A DNA stretch of 64,000 bases from an uncultured Clostridia bacterium (GTDB lineage Bacteria > Bacillota > Clostridia > TANB77 > CAG-508), in the NCBI GenBank assembly GCA_944392105.1, contig CALXVM010000001.1:1-64000 (forward strand), in the 5' to 3' direction. The notes under the pieces were generated by a model. The model saw nothing but the letters and a program-made list of their open reading frames with translations, made no database searches and had not been told where the DNA came from. Position numbers and translations under genes: made by a program. This document shows positions 22,472 to 38,676 of this stretch, one piece after another; the stretch's first letter is position 1; each line of letters opens with the position of its first letter.

Positions 22472-24427
22472 ATGACAAATGAATTAAATATGAATGAAAC
22501 TAGGATAAGAAAGAAAAACGAAAATAGCCTAGTTAAGAGAAGTGTGCCTAAAACACAAAGGCAGAGACAAAGAGGAGTTAAAACAGAACATAAAAGTACA
22601 AAAACAACTCCAGAAACAAGAAGTACAAGATTATCTGATGTAAAAGAAAAAAGCAATCTAAGAAATTTAAGAGAAAACAAAAAAATTACAGAAACAATTG
22701 AGACAAGAAATAGAAAGGATACTTCGAAAAAAGAGAAAGTAAATAAAAGAAGTTTAGACTTCTCTTTTAAAAAGTCTAATTTAAAAATAGCACCATTGGG
22801 CGGACTTGGAGAGATAGGAAAAAACATTACTGTATTTGAGTATGAAAATGAAATTGTAGTGGTTGACTGCGGTCTAGAGTTCCCAGAAGACGATATGCTA
22901 GGAGTAGACTTAGTTATACCAGATGTAACATATTTGGTAAAAAACAAAGATAAAATTAAGGGTATGGTTATAACACATGGACATGAGGACCACATAGGAG
23001 CCATACCATATGTTTTAAAACAAATTAATATACCTATTTATGCAACAAAATTGACAATAGAGTTAATAAAAAATAAATTGGAAGAACATCATCTTGTAAA
23101 TAGTGCTAAGTTACATGTGGTAGAACCAGGACAAACAATTAATTTTGGAAAGTTGAAAGCGGAATTTATAAGAAGTTCACATAGTATTCCAGATGCTGTA
23201 ATGATAGCAATGCATACTCCAGTAGGTGTAGTACTTCATACTGGTGACTTTAAAGTTGACTATACTCCAATTGATGACAAAATAATGGACTTAGGCAGAA
23301 TTGCAGAATTAGGTAATGAAGGTGTGCTTGCATTACTTTCAGACAGTACAAATTCAGAGAAAAAAGGATTTACTATGTCAGAAAGTAGTATAGGAGAAGT
23401 ATTTGATAGGCTTTTCCAAGGAAACAAGAAAAGAATAGTAGTTGCAACATTTGCTTCAAATGTCCACAGAGTTCAACAAATTGTGGATGCAGCAGTTAAA
23501 TATGGCAGAAAAGTAGCAATATGTGGTAGAAGTATGATAAATATGATAGATGCTGCTAGAAAACTTGGATATATAGAAGTGCCAGACAATGTATTTATAG
23601 ACATTGATATGATTAAAAATTATACAGATGATCAATTAGTTATAATTACAACAGGAAGCCAAGGTGAAACAATGTCTGCACTTACAAGGATGGCAAATGG
23701 CGAGCATAAAAAGGTTACTTTAACACCAAATGATATGGTAATTATATCTGCAACACCAATACCAGGAAATGAGAAAGGTGTGTCAAGAGTAATTAATGAA
23801 TTAATGAAGGGCGGAATAGAAGTAATATATAGCTCATTAGAAGCAATACACGTTTCAGGACACGCATGCCAAGAAGAACAAAAATTAATATTGGCACTAG
23901 CAAAACCTAAATACTTTATGCCAGTACACGGTGAATATAGACAATTAAAAGCACACATGGAAACAGCAAAACAAATGGGAATAGATCCCGAAAATATATT
24001 CATTTTAGAAAATGGAAGGGTACTTGAATTAAATGAAAACGAAGCTAAATTTACTAGCACAATTCAATCTGGTAAAATTTTAGTAGATGGACTTGGTGTT
24101 GGAGACGTAGGAAATATTGTTTTAAGAGACAGACAACACCTATCTCAAGATGGACTAATAGTTATTGTTATGACAATGGATTCAAATACAGGAGAAGTAA
24201 TATCAGGACCAGATGTTGTGTCTAGAGGATTTGTTTATGTAAGAGAATCTGAAAACCTAATGGATGAGGTAAAACAAGTTATTGCAGAAGAAGTTAGAAA
24301 ATGTGAGGAAAATAGCATAAGAGATTGGAGCACAATAAAATCTAACATTAAAGATACATTAAGAGATTATATCTTTACAAAAACAAAGAGAAATCCTATG
24401 ATATTACCTATTATTATGGAAGTTTAG
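22472..24427 (+). CDS. rnj: ribonuclease J with basic N-terminal extension
   Basis: A 651-residue beta-CASP metallo-beta-lactamase ribonuclease acting in mRNA decay and rRNA maturation (5' exonuclease and endonuclease). The catalytic motif HGHEDHIGA is at about 169-177, and later motifs include SHSIPDA, HTGDFK and HVSGHA. Homologues of about 555 residues begin at KIAPLGGLGEIGKN, here residue 107. The first 100 residues are a Lys/Arg-rich disordered extension, as known in actinobacterial RNase J, probably an RNA or partner contact. AAGGAGAG precedes the ATG. It has its own promoter and a terminator. Confidence 0.93.
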   Translation: MTNELNMNETRIRKKNENSLVKRSVPKTQRQRQRGVKTEHKSTKTTPETRSTRLSDVKEKSNLRNLRENKKITETIETRNRKDTSKKEKVNKRSLDFSFKKSNLKIAPLGGLGEIGKNITVFEYENEIVVVDCGLEFPEDDMLGVDLVIPDVTYLVKNKDKIKGMVITHGHEDHIGAIPYVLKQINIPIYATKLTIELIKNKLEEHHLVNSAKLHVVEPGQTINFGKLKAEFIRSSHSIPDAVMIAMHTPVGVVLHTGDFKVDYTPIDDKIMDLGRIAELGNEGVLALLSDSTNSEKKGFTMSESSIGEVFDRLFQGNKKRIVVATFASNVHRVQQIVDAAVKYGRKVAICGRSMINMIDAARKLGYIEVPDNVFIDIDMIKNYTDDQLVIITTGSQGETMSALTRMANGEHKKVTLTPNDMVIISATPIPGNEKGVSRVINELMKGGIEVIYSSLEAIHVSGHACQEEQKLILALAKPKYFMPVHGEYRQLKAHMETAKQMGIDPENIFILENGRVLELNENEAKFTSTIQSGKILVDGLGVGDVGNIVLRDRQHLSQDGLIVIVMTMDSNTGEVISGPDVVSRGFVYVRESENLMDEVKQVIAEEVRKCEENSIRDWSTIKSNIKDTLRDYIFTKTKRNPMILPIIMEV

Positions 24428-24471: not shown

Positions 24472-24647
24472 TTTGTTACCTTTTTGTTACCTACGTAATA
24501 GGTTTTTCGGGGTTTTATATTGTTTTGATGCTTATATATATAATTTTTTTTAGTTTTTTAATTGAAATAAAATTTGAAGTGTAAAAAATTATTTTAAAAT
24601 AAAATGAATATTTATTCATAGTTTTATATAAAATAATAATATAATTG

Positions 24648-24676
24648 TTGACATTATATTTACAAAATGTTACAAT
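24648..24676 (+). promoter_or_regulatory. promoter of the intergenic RNA
   Basis: TTGACA (24648-24653), 17-nt spacer, TACAAT (24671-24676). The stretch 24472-24647 before it is plain AT-rich sequence with nothing else recognisable. Confidence 0.7.
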
Positions 24677-24682
24677 TATTAT

Positions 24683-24798
24683 ACCAGAAGAGGTTTTCTC
24701 TTTGTTCGGTCGATAGCTAGATACTGATTATAAATAATTAAGCGTATGTTAAGTACGTCAGTCTAGTTGGGAAGAGGCTACTACGTTAGTCTCTTTTC
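24683..24798 (+). ncRNA. candidate structured RNA convergent with DUF3800 gene
   Basis: A transcription unit of about 115 nt with promoter and terminator but no ORF. Visible pairings are AGAG/CTCT around 24690, CTAG and ACTGA with TCAGT and CTAG enclosing CGTA/TACG, and a final AGAGGCTA/TAGTCTCT stem followed by TTTTCTT. Its 3' end meets the 3' end of the opposing DUF3800 gene at 24799. Several published RNA motifs of unknown role are named after their association with DUF3800 genes; I cannot say which, if any, this matches. Confidence 0.55.
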
Positions 24799-25554
24799 TT
24801 ATGGCAAAAATATTTTATAATTAATAAATTCTATTCTTTTTGAAAATTCTAAGAGATTTTCTATATTATTTAAATATAATCTACGTACTGTTCCTGCTAC
24901 TAAGTCAGAAGCTTGGATTAAATAACTTTTCTCGGATTTTTGATAACAAACACTTACATCTAAATCAGAACTTATAACTGGAGTAGAATATGAGCCATAA
25001 TTGTAATTAATTATTCCATATTTTAATTCTTCTATAATTCCATCTCGTAAGTTATAATATCCATTTGTTTTTGTGGTTTGTTCGTCAATATTTATTATTA
25101 GCTTTACAGGTAAATTAGGATTTAATTGATTTTCTTTTATTAATGATTTTATAATATGTTTTATTAATAACTTTAGAGAATAGTCTAAAAATCTTCCCCT
25201 AGAAGCAGTATCATTTTTAATATTAGGGTATACTTTAGTATTATTTATAATACAACCAATAGTATGATATTTTTTTATATAGTTCATAAGTTGTCTATTA
25301 TGCTTGGATTTTAACATATTATGTTTTAATTCTGGACAAGATTTATTACTATTGCATGTTGATATGTTTTGATTACAATATTTACATTTTATATTTTGAA
25401 CAATACTTCTATATTGTGTAATAAATTTATCTTTTTCACTTTTTGACGTAAAAATTAAACCTGCATATATAGTTACCTTTTCTGTATCTACAAGTTTGCC
25501 TGAGTCATCTATATTTATATATAGAGTTTGATTCTCCTTTGAGATTAAATTCAT
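24799..25554 (-). CDS. DUF3800 family protein
   Basis: A 251-residue protein with AAGGAGA 7 nt before the ATG. DDSG near residue 16 and IQASDLVAGTVRR near the C-terminus are hallmarks of DUF3800, proposed to have an RNase H-like fold. A Cys pair (CKYCNQ) and CPEL form a likely metal-binding insertion at about 57-75. DUF3800 proteins occur in mobile and defence-associated contexts and are repeatedly found beside structured RNAs. Here an RNA unit lies immediately against its 3' end on the opposite strand. It is monocistronic; biochemical role unknown. Confidence 0.8.
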   Translation of the reverse strand: MNLISKENQTLYINIDDSGKLVDTEKVTIYAGLIFTSKSEKDKFITQYRSIVQNIKCKYCNQNISTCNSNKSCPELKHNMLKSKHNRQLMNYIKKYHTIGCIINNTKVYPNIKNDTASRGRFLDYSLKLLIKHIIKSLIKENQLNPNLPVKLIINIDEQTTKTNGYYNLRDGIIEELKYGIINYNYGSYSTPVISSDLDVSVCYQKSEKSYLIQASDLVAGTVRRLYLNNIENLLEFSKRIEFINYKIFLP

Positions 25555-25804: not shown

Positions 25805-27454
25805 ATGAATTATAAAGAGTTAGCAGATTTACTTTTTCCAGATGCAAAGCCAGTTTCATATTACGAGGAAAAATATCCAGCGAGAAATTTAAAAGAGGGT
25901 GCTGCTGTAGTTAGGTTTGCCCCAAGTCCAACAGGATTTGTACATATTGGTGGACTTTATCAAAGCATTATAAATAGAAAATTAGCGGACCAAACAGGTG
26001 GCGTATTTATATTAAGAATAGAAGATACAGATCAAAAAAGACAAATAGAAAATGGTGTTGTACAAATAGTAGATTCACTTAAGGATTTTGATATAATACC
26101 AGATGAAGGAATGACAGGAGAAAATACAGAAAAAGGAATATATGGACCATATAAACAAAGCGATAGAAAGGATATATACCAAGCTTTTGCTAAATATTTA
26201 ATAGAGCAAGGAAAAGCATATCCATGTTTTGCAACTCCAGAAGAACTAGAAGAAATGAGAAATAAGCAAGAAGCTGCAAAAATTAGACCTGGATATTATG
26301 GAATATGGGCAAAATATAGAACTTTGTCAGTAGATGAGGCAGCAGAAAAAATAAAAGCAGGAGAACCATGGGTTGTACGTTTTAAATCAATGGGACAAGA
26401 AGATAAAAAAATTAAGCATCATGATTTAATAAAAGGAAATATAGAGTTTCCAGAAAATGACCAAGATATAGTTATAATAAAAGCAGATGGACTTCCAACA
26501 TACCATTTTGCACATGCTGTTGATGATCATTTAATGAGAGTAACACATGTAGTTCGTGCAGATGAATGGCTATCATCTGTACCTCTACATTTAGAGTTAT
26601 TTAAAGCATTAGGATTTAAAACTCCTAAATATGCACATACAGCATCTATCATGAAAGAGGACGAAGGTAAGAAACGTAAAATTAGTAAAAGGAAGGACCC
26701 AGAAGCAGCAGTTAGTTACTATCATGAAGAAGGAATTCCTTCACAAGCCGTTTGTGAATATTTATTAAATATAGCAAATTCAAATTTTGAAGGATGGAGA
26801 AAAGCAAATCCAGATAAAGATATTTCAGAATTTAAATTTGAACTTGGAAAAATGAGTGTAAGTGGAGCTGTTTTTGATTTAATAAAACTTTTAGATGTTT
26901 CTAAAAATGTTATATCTAAATATACTAAAGAAAGAATATATGATGAAGTTTTAACATGGGCAAAGAGATATGATACAGAATTAGAAGAAATGTTACAAGA
27001 TAAAGAATATTCATTAAAAGTATTTGGGATAGAAAGAGGAAATGCGAAACCAAGGAAAGATATTGCAAAATGGAGTGATGTAAAAGAAAGCATTATATAC
27101 ATGTATGACAATAAATTCCTAAATTCTAATACAGAATATCAATTTGGAAATATAAATGATAAAGAAGAAATAAAGAAAATATTAACTTCGTATATGGAAA
27201 AACATTTTAATATGCAAGATGATAAGCAAACATGGTTTGACAAAATAAAAGATTTATCAGAAGAATTTGGATATGCAAGAGAAGTAAAAGAATATAAGCA
27301 AAATCCAGAAAATTATAAAGGACATGTTGGAGATGTAAGTACAGTATTAAGAGTTGCATTAACAGGAAGACAAAATACACCAGATTTATATGAAATAATG
27401 CAAGTTTTAGGGGAAGAAAGCATTAAAACAAGAATGGAGAAAGCAAAGAAATAA
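25805..27454 (+). CDS. gltX: glutamyl-tRNA synthetase
   Basis: A 549-residue class I synthetase that charges tRNA-Glu. The ATG at 25805 lies 6 nt after AGGAGA; the upstream in-frame ATG at 25739 is inside the promoter. FAPSPTGFVHIGG gives the HIGH-type motif near residue 46 and KISKRKD the KMSKS-type motif near 292. At 549 residues it is longer than the 480-490 of most bacterial enzymes, because of an N-terminal lead of about 37 residues and insertions, a form seen in gut clostridia. Monocistronic, ending in a bidirectional terminator. Confidence 0.93.
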   Translation: MNYKELADLLFPDAKPVSYYEEKYPARNLKEGAAVVRFAPSPTGFVHIGGLYQSIINRKLADQTGGVFILRIEDTDQKRQIENGVVQIVDSLKDFDIIPDEGMTGENTEKGIYGPYKQSDRKDIYQAFAKYLIEQGKAYPCFATPEELEEMRNKQEAAKIRPGYYGIWAKYRTLSVDEAAEKIKAGEPWVVRFKSMGQEDKKIKHHDLIKGNIEFPENDQDIVIIKADGLPTYHFAHAVDDHLMRVTHVVRADEWLSSVPLHLELFKALGFKTPKYAHTASIMKEDEGKKRKISKRKDPEAAVSYYHEEGIPSQAVCEYLLNIANSNFEGWRKANPDKDISEFKFELGKMSVSGAVFDLIKLLDVSKNVISKYTKERIYDEVLTWAKRYDTELEEMLQDKEYSLKVFGIERGNAKPRKDIAKWSDVKESIIYMYDNKFLNSNTEYQFGNINDKEEIKKILTSYMEKHFNMQDDKQTWFDKIKDLSEEFGYAREVKEYKQNPENYKGHVGDVSTVLRVALTGRQNTPDLYEIMQVLGEESIKTRMEKAKK

Positions 27455-38310: not shown

Positions 38311-38384
38311 AAAATACCTCCTTAAAATTTATTAACTTTTATTTAAGAAAGCAATTACAAATTAATAGTTACCCTATTAGATTT

Positions 38385-38508
38385 GTTGTATTATATTACT
38401 ATAATTTTTTCTCTAATATTTAATGGCAGTAACTATGCCATAGAACCATCCGCCGAATCTTTCGATAAGTTCTATCCTCGTCAACAGAAAAAAATCTGTC
38501 CAGGCGCT
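38385..38508 (-). ncRNA. glmS ribozyme (glucosamine-6-phosphate riboswitch)
   Basis: On the minus strand the leader contains AGCGCC (cleavage expected just before G at 38507), then GTTGACGAGG, TTATCGA, TTCGGCGGATGG and TACTGCCATTAA in the order of the glmS ribozyme. It ends about 75 nt before the glmS start. Metabolite-dependent self-cleavage leads to mRNA decay by RNase J in Bacillus; an RNase J gene is present in this window. Confidence 0.95.
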
Positions 38509-38676
38509 AAAATAAAATCTATCCTCCTATTTATAAAGTTTAAAATAATTTGTAAGCTTCTTTAATGTAATTATATTACTATAAAATTATAAAAGTGTCA
38601 AAGAAAATAAAAAAGTACAAATGTTTATTTTAATATTGTGATATTTTTTATTAAATTATTCAAATAATATTGTTGC

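Follow-up and report, generated by a model that had tools for sequence, protein, structure and literature searches.

A DUF3800-I RNA and a predicted RNase HII-like DUF3800 protein in an uncultured Clostridia bacterium: a possible RNA-controlled nuclease module

The window analysed here, the whole stretch of 64,000 nucleotides from an uncultured Clostridia bacterium, carries a DUF3800-I RNA gene (RF02969) that converges on a DUF3800 gene, the product of which is predicted to adopt an RNase HII-like nuclease fold. Among relatives, the linkage between RNA and gene is near-obligatory while their order is free. The unit can be interpreted, with a confidence that stands midway, as a module of anti-phage type in which an RNA antitoxin is paired with a nuclease toxin, comparable to AbiF-RCd22. 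The RNA family and its association with DUF3800 are already known from Rfam; the unit adds one member to this family and is not a new type of system. The features of the unit and its surroundings are as follows.

22472-24427, + strand: left flanking core gene, bordering the insertion spot; from its ORF translation, presumably ribonuclease J-like
24641-24679, + strand: promoter of the RNA gene (-35 TTGACA at 24648-24653, 17-nt spacer, -10 TACAAT at 24671-24676)
24683-24800, + strand: DUF3800-I RNA gene (RF02969), with the 5' end placed from the promoter position
24683-24710, + strand: 5' stem-loop of the consensus structure, ACC/GGT pairing 24683-24685 with 24708-24710, variable hairpin inside
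24714-24769, + strand: central domain, helices 3-5 of the consensus
24714-24720/24763-24769, + strand: outer stem of the central domain (consensus structure)
24724-24726/24759-24761, + strand: second stem of the central domain (consensus structure)
24727-24741, + strand: conserved unpaired A/U-rich segment of the central domain
24742-24747/24753-24758, + strand: hairpin of the central domain (consensus structure)
24769-24800, + strand: intrinsic terminator, helices 6-7 of the consensus (hairpin 24769-24797, T-run 24794-24800)
24799-25554, - strand: DUF3800 gene (Pfam PF12686), 251 aa, predicted RNase HII-like metal-dependent nuclease
25805-27454, + strand: right flanking core gene, bordering the insertion spot; from its ORF translation, taken to be gltX, glutamyl-tRNA synthetase

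The sequence-only reading of this DNA had described a TTGACA/TACAAT promoter, nested stems and an intrinsic terminator, all of which were confirmed by direct reading at 24648-24800. It had also placed the end of the RNA at the end of the opposing DUF3800 gene, and the T-run of the terminator indeed overlaps the stop codon of that gene (TTA on the + strand, 24799-24801) by 2 nt. The search with the DUF3800-associated motifs that it had proposed was positive: the RF02969 covariance model scored 57.1 bits, above the gathering score of 44.2, with a match spanning 24676-24806 (E = 4.3e-6, whole window searched). Both the RNA, by genome search, and the DUF3800 gene are single-copy in the 1.5-Mb genome. 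The clade of the window shares with the rest of RF02969 a score above the gathering threshold and the DUF3800-gene association. However, it forms a divergent edge of the family, with 57 bits against 75-106 bits in L120-L122, L124, L129, L132 and L133, and its convergent order sets it apart. The Rfam search also gave a glmS ribozyme elsewhere in the window (38365-38519, - strand, 87.7 bits); near a DUF3800 or DUF3800-I locus of relatives, an OLE RNA (L052:597-1191, - strand, 342.9 bits) and a skipping-rope RNA (L016:660-740, + strand, 64 bits) were observed.

The promoter is enclosed by an imperfect dyad, ATAATTGT(TG)ACA at 24641-24653 and TGT(T)ACAATTAT at 24668-24679, which overlaps the -35 and -10 elements and may represent an operator-like element. 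The promoter is kept in nearly all relatives and has diverged in L006 and L099. The dyad is common to both subtypes of the unit described below, and both arms are altered together in a few loci, such as L093 and L102. Because the dyad stays constant while the RNA and the protein diverge, a factor that binds it, if there is any, would, speculatively, more likely be shared or host-encoded.

The RNA structure is conserved more than expected by chance. In an alignment of 26 diverse members to an RNA-only model, which was fitted to the structure of the model, itself derived from an ordinary MAFFT alignment, 97.1% of the cells of the 36 pairs were paired, and both-side changes occurred at 29 of these pairs. 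The real alignment was matched by none of 500 shuffled controls, and when the partners were slid by 1-3 columns, the pairing fell to 36-49%. In the central domain, helices 3-5 are paired at 97-100% and 12 of the 16 pairs show changes on both sides. In the ordinary alignment of 19 relatives, compensatory changes were found at 20 of the 47 predicted pairs, with the promoter columns counted in. Thus the stems, on whose conservation in relatives the sequence-only reading had made its proposal depend, covary strongly. Both in the window and in the relatives, the RNA is a single non-repeated structure, not a tandem-repeat array.

Co-occurrence of the RNA and the gene in relatives, proposed earlier as a check, is borne out by the genome survey. 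RF02969 is present in 20 of 292 genomes of the same bacterial family, and the matching DUF3800 clade, defined by a 24-protein alignment, occurs in essentially the same genomes of this set. An apparent exception, G030, also has a related convergent RNA (R1, 50.5 bits), and G283 is cut by a contig end. At the named loci of the clade, which overlap with the 292-genome set, the RNA lies beside the gene in 31 of 35 cases, or 31 of the 32 that could be assessed, since three were cut by contig ends; L118 and L106, which are contig ends, were left out of the count. The one remaining locus, L119, has an intact clade gene with no RNA detected nearby and no RF02969 match in that genome, although a diverged RNA could escape detection. 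All eight inspected phage or plasmid loci carry the RNA, one of them just under the cut-off (41.2 bits). The clade is rare across the phylum: of 397 other genomes, two carry it, and each of them has the RNA as well. When IMG/VR was scanned for two peptide patterns derived from the aligned proteins, 121 pattern matches and no relatives came up; the scan was insensitive, since annotated phage records did yield three relatives.

The order of the two genes changes among these loci. The convergent order, with the RNA downstream of the gene, was found at 28 loci, including the clade of the window; it is not a general feature. In L120-L123, L125-L128 and L132, the RNA follows the gene in tandem, under a promoter of its own; in L124, L129 and L133, it precedes the gene in tandem, about 15 nt before the start codon. 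This free order speaks against a role as antisense RNA or mRNA terminator and favours an RNA that works in trans.

A few loci depart from this picture. At L003:1501-2514, a DUF3800-I RNA was found in a genome without any DUF3800 gene; this orphan adjoins an integrase-like ORF and has a convergent PemK/MazF toxin gene nearby. Partner swapping could be the cause, but the toxin gene is 290 nt away in an integrative element, and the case is a single one. At L008:1626-1697 and L016:1631-1748, the contigs break just past the RNA, in a common repeat with ACAAGGTTAAGTTACCT and hairpins, possibly a mobile repeat inserted between the RNA and the gene; these two were taken for assembly breaks and not counted among the orphan RNAs.

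The RNA and the protein each fall into subtypes A and B, with mean between-subtype identities of 61% and 44%, respectively, and the two assignments agree wherever an RNA could be paired with its protein. The correlation between the distance matrices of RNA and protein is r = 0.96 overall and 0.54 within subtype A; for the promoter stretch it is only 0.28. The RNA-protein correlation, in which shared vertical descent is still contained, is evidence of co-inheritance and compatibility rather than of direct contact.

The product of the DUF3800 gene matched PF12686 with 48.8 bits (cut-off 21) as its only Pfam family. An AlphaFold model, built from 18 proteins of the window and the loci, reached a mean pLDDT of 85.3 and a pTM of 0.84. 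A sequence search of the PDB gave no meaningful relatives; the top fold match of the model was RNase HII (1eke; E = 1e-5, probability 1.00, TM 0.50-0.57), followed by RNase H2 entries, which predicts an RNase HII-like nuclease fold. This agrees with published work in which DUF3800 is termed an RNase H fold (PMC10910872, PMC12669027). All 24 aligned proteins share D16, D157 and D217, with either D or E at position 17; E75, K77 and D124 are likewise invariant. In the model, D16 and D17 are found at the end of strand 1, D157 at the end of a later strand and D217 within a late helix, a placement that we assume to be the one expected of an RNase H active site, and these four residues are candidates for the active site. 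The likeness to RNase HII lies in the fold and, putatively, in an acidic pair ending strand 1 and two later aspartates in similar elements, whereas the identity of about 10%, the extra helices, the RNA partner and a CxxC...C...C insert found in some members only distinguish the DUF3800 protein from it.

The unit is accessory cargo of prophages, plasmids and a chromosomal spot. The spot, between the RNase J-like gene and gltX, was compared by gap length and content (L053-L071), which does not fix the exact borders of the inserted unit: nine genomes of the genus have an empty spot, with a gap of only 3-82 bp, and other genomes hold the RNA-DUF3800 unit or a different DUF3800 gene (L062) there. 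Genes of toxin type also occupy it, namely PemK/MazF-type in L068 and L069 (L068 being assigned solely by similarity to L069), ParE in L067 and HicB in L065. In the Streptococcus prophages Javan110 and Javan73, the DUF3800 gene lies between a CI-type repressor and an integrase, and an ImmA-like gene is among its prophage neighbours; the gene directly follows the lysin in prophages carried on plasmids of Ligilactobacillus, Exiguobacterium, Enterococcus and Fructilactobacillus. A Doc-type toxin gene is found close by on a plasmid of Lactobacillus gasseri; L129 is the locus with such a gene beside the unit. Such prophage and plasmid positions are usual for lysogenic-conversion, defence and toxin-antitoxin genes.

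The sequence-only reading had considered an RNA-protein pair of toxin-antitoxin, mobile or defence type plausible. The pair itself is supported by the linkage in three gene orders and by the co-divergence, and the toxin-antitoxin or defence type is favoured because of the prophage, plasmid and toxin-gene contexts; the mobile type is disfavoured, as no recombinase was found in the unit and there is no sign of self-mobility. In the reading preferred here, the DUF3800-I RNA would be made from its own strong promoter, and the folded RNA would bind the RNase HII-fold nuclease in trans and keep it inactive, as an RNA antitoxin of type-III-like action. If the short-lived RNA were lost or diverted, as could happen when a phage turns off the transcription of its host, the freed nuclease would stop growth or phage multiplication. 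We infer the binding of RNA and protein, the inhibition by binding, the toxicity of the free nuclease and a purpose in phage defence or maintenance; the supports for this antitoxin role are the near-obligatory linkage, the three gene orders, the co-divergence, the nuclease-like fold, the prophage and toxin-gene settings, the orphan RNA of L003 and the precedent of AbiF-RCd22. Three observations count against it. RNase HII, the closest fold, cleaves RNA in RNA/DNA hybrids and not mRNA, which ToxN cuts; the PADLOC defence library gave no match at E <= 1; and L119, without a detectable RNA, fits badly with an obligate antitoxin, although it is not decisive.

In the precedent, the prophage-borne non-repeat RNA RCd22 of Clostridioides difficile directly binds and neutralises the toxic AbiF (PMC12373285). 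Like the present RNA, it is a single structured RNA of about 100-130 nt without repeats, with its own SigA-type promoter and terminator (PMC12373285); both systems are prophage-borne and place an RNA beside an RNA-active protein, and the tandem upstream position of the RNA in AbiF-RCd22 and in type III modules is that seen in L124, L129 and L133. However, AbiF belongs to the Abi_2 family, related to ancestral Cas13, whereas DUF3800 has an RNase H fold; the two RNAs are unrelated, and the neutralisation is experimental for AbiF-RCd22 and proposed for the present unit. Neither an Abi_2/AbiF protein (Pfam) nor the abiF RNA motif (Rfam) was matched, so the unit is not an AbiF-RCd22 system. It resembles type III toxin-antitoxin modules (ToxIN, CptIN, TenpIN) in combining an RNA gene with a nuclease gene and in being accessory and defence-related, but it is not a classic type III module, since its RNA lacks tandem repeats and its protein, with DUF3800 as the only Pfam match and an RNase HII-like fold, is not of the ToxN/AbiQ family.

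Less probable than the antitoxin role, but the strongest of its competitors, is a role of the RNA as the cofactor that a defence ribonucleoprotein needs: it would scaffold, activate or specify the nuclease against phage nucleic acid, the protein alone being inert. The near-obligatory linkage is equally compatible with this, and the free order and co-divergence are equally expected; the prophage positions are typical of defence or exclusion genes. DUF3800 proteins also accompany Cas12a2 and type VI-F/V-A2 CRISPR loci (PMC10910872, PMC12669027), and these accessory proteins share the domain family and the RNase H fold; the Cas12a2-linked ones, however, are fused to TPR and the CRISPR-linked proteins lie beside a CRISPR array, whereas that of the window is stand-alone with its own RNA. 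On the other hand, the variation in the RNA alignments falls mostly within stems, hairpin loops and one short A/U-rich stretch, and no long variable unpaired segment was seen there, which makes a TnpB- or IscB-like guide unlikely and rejects an IscB/TnpB-type RNA-guided nuclease. The orphan RNA of L003 is also easier to explain as an antitoxin than as a cofactor, which, without being decisive, inclines the choice towards the antitoxin role.

That the pair is a small mobile element, composed of a DUF3800 enzyme and an RNA guide or template, appears improbable. The patchy distribution, the differing flanks and a chromosomal spot that is empty or filled would fit it, and RNase H folds occur in transposases. 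However, the RNA and the gene are single-copy in the genome, no recombinase and no terminal repeats were noticed, among 397 other genomes of the phylum just two carry the unit, and several copies lie in known prophages, which accounts for the movement. It is more improbable still that the RNA controls the DUF3800 mRNA in cis, whether by antisense pairing or by terminating convergent transcription. The convergent transcripts of the window and the terminator overlapping the stop codon suggest such an action, but as a general function it is largely refuted by the tandem loci (L120-L129, L132 and L133), where the RNA is on the strand of the gene, downstream or upstream, and it is the RNA structure that is conserved, not the sequence alone. 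At the upstream-tandem loci, an extra cis effect via attenuation is possible. Finally, an unrelated host small RNA, adjacent by accident, is hardly credible: the orphan RNA of L003 is consistent with it, but the linkage, which holds in changing order at 31 of the 32 loci that could be assessed and at all eight from phages or plasmids, refutes it.

The pattern extends to other DUF3800 clades of the same bacterial family, in which a promoter-plus-terminator unit lies directly after the stop codon of the DUF3800 gene. In cluster 1 (L023-L035, L047, L052; for example L159, G127:C27:5484-5683), the unit is convergent with a TTGACA/TATAAT promoter, and it folds into a three-way junction in which 9 of 20 pairs show compensatory changes (14 sequences aligned). 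The convergent unit of cluster 2 (L036-L039, L041, L049; 5 sequences) has a three-way junction as in cluster 1, and in some members its -35 element lies within a TGTCAA..TTGACA palindrome. The RNA of cluster 4 is the Rfam family DUF3800-VII, and cluster 5 (L046, L048, L051, L155, L156; 5 sequences) has a tandem downstream unit with a hairpin core in common with DUF3800-I. In cluster 3, a downstream ORF takes the place of the RNA-like unit. Sensitive scans of Rfam 15 matched no DUF3800 family in clusters 1 and 2, and in cluster 5 reached DUF3800-I in one member only, at 35.1 bits, under the cut-off. Some of these cluster RNAs could be published motifs absent from Rfam. With a probability that falls somewhat short of even, DUF3800 proteins may generally be RNA-partnered RNase HII-like nucleases, each clade having its own RNA class and most a three-way-junction-like core; they would then form a broad class of RNA-controlled toxin or defence systems that includes families outside Rfam (clusters 1, 2 and 5).

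Literature searches of full texts found no functional study of DUF3800-linked RNAs. The main contribution of this work is mechanistic evidence together with the wider DUF3800-RNA pattern: the free gene order, the co-divergence, the predicted RNase HII-like fold and the setting in prophages and a toxin-gene spot turn a vague RNA-gene association into a testable proposal of an RNA controlling a nuclease in trans, for which the Javan110 prophage and the plasmid-borne prophages of Enterococcus and Ligilactobacillus provide small portable examples. If the proposal is true, a non-repeat RNA antitoxin and an RNase H-fold toxin would join the AbiF-like systems.
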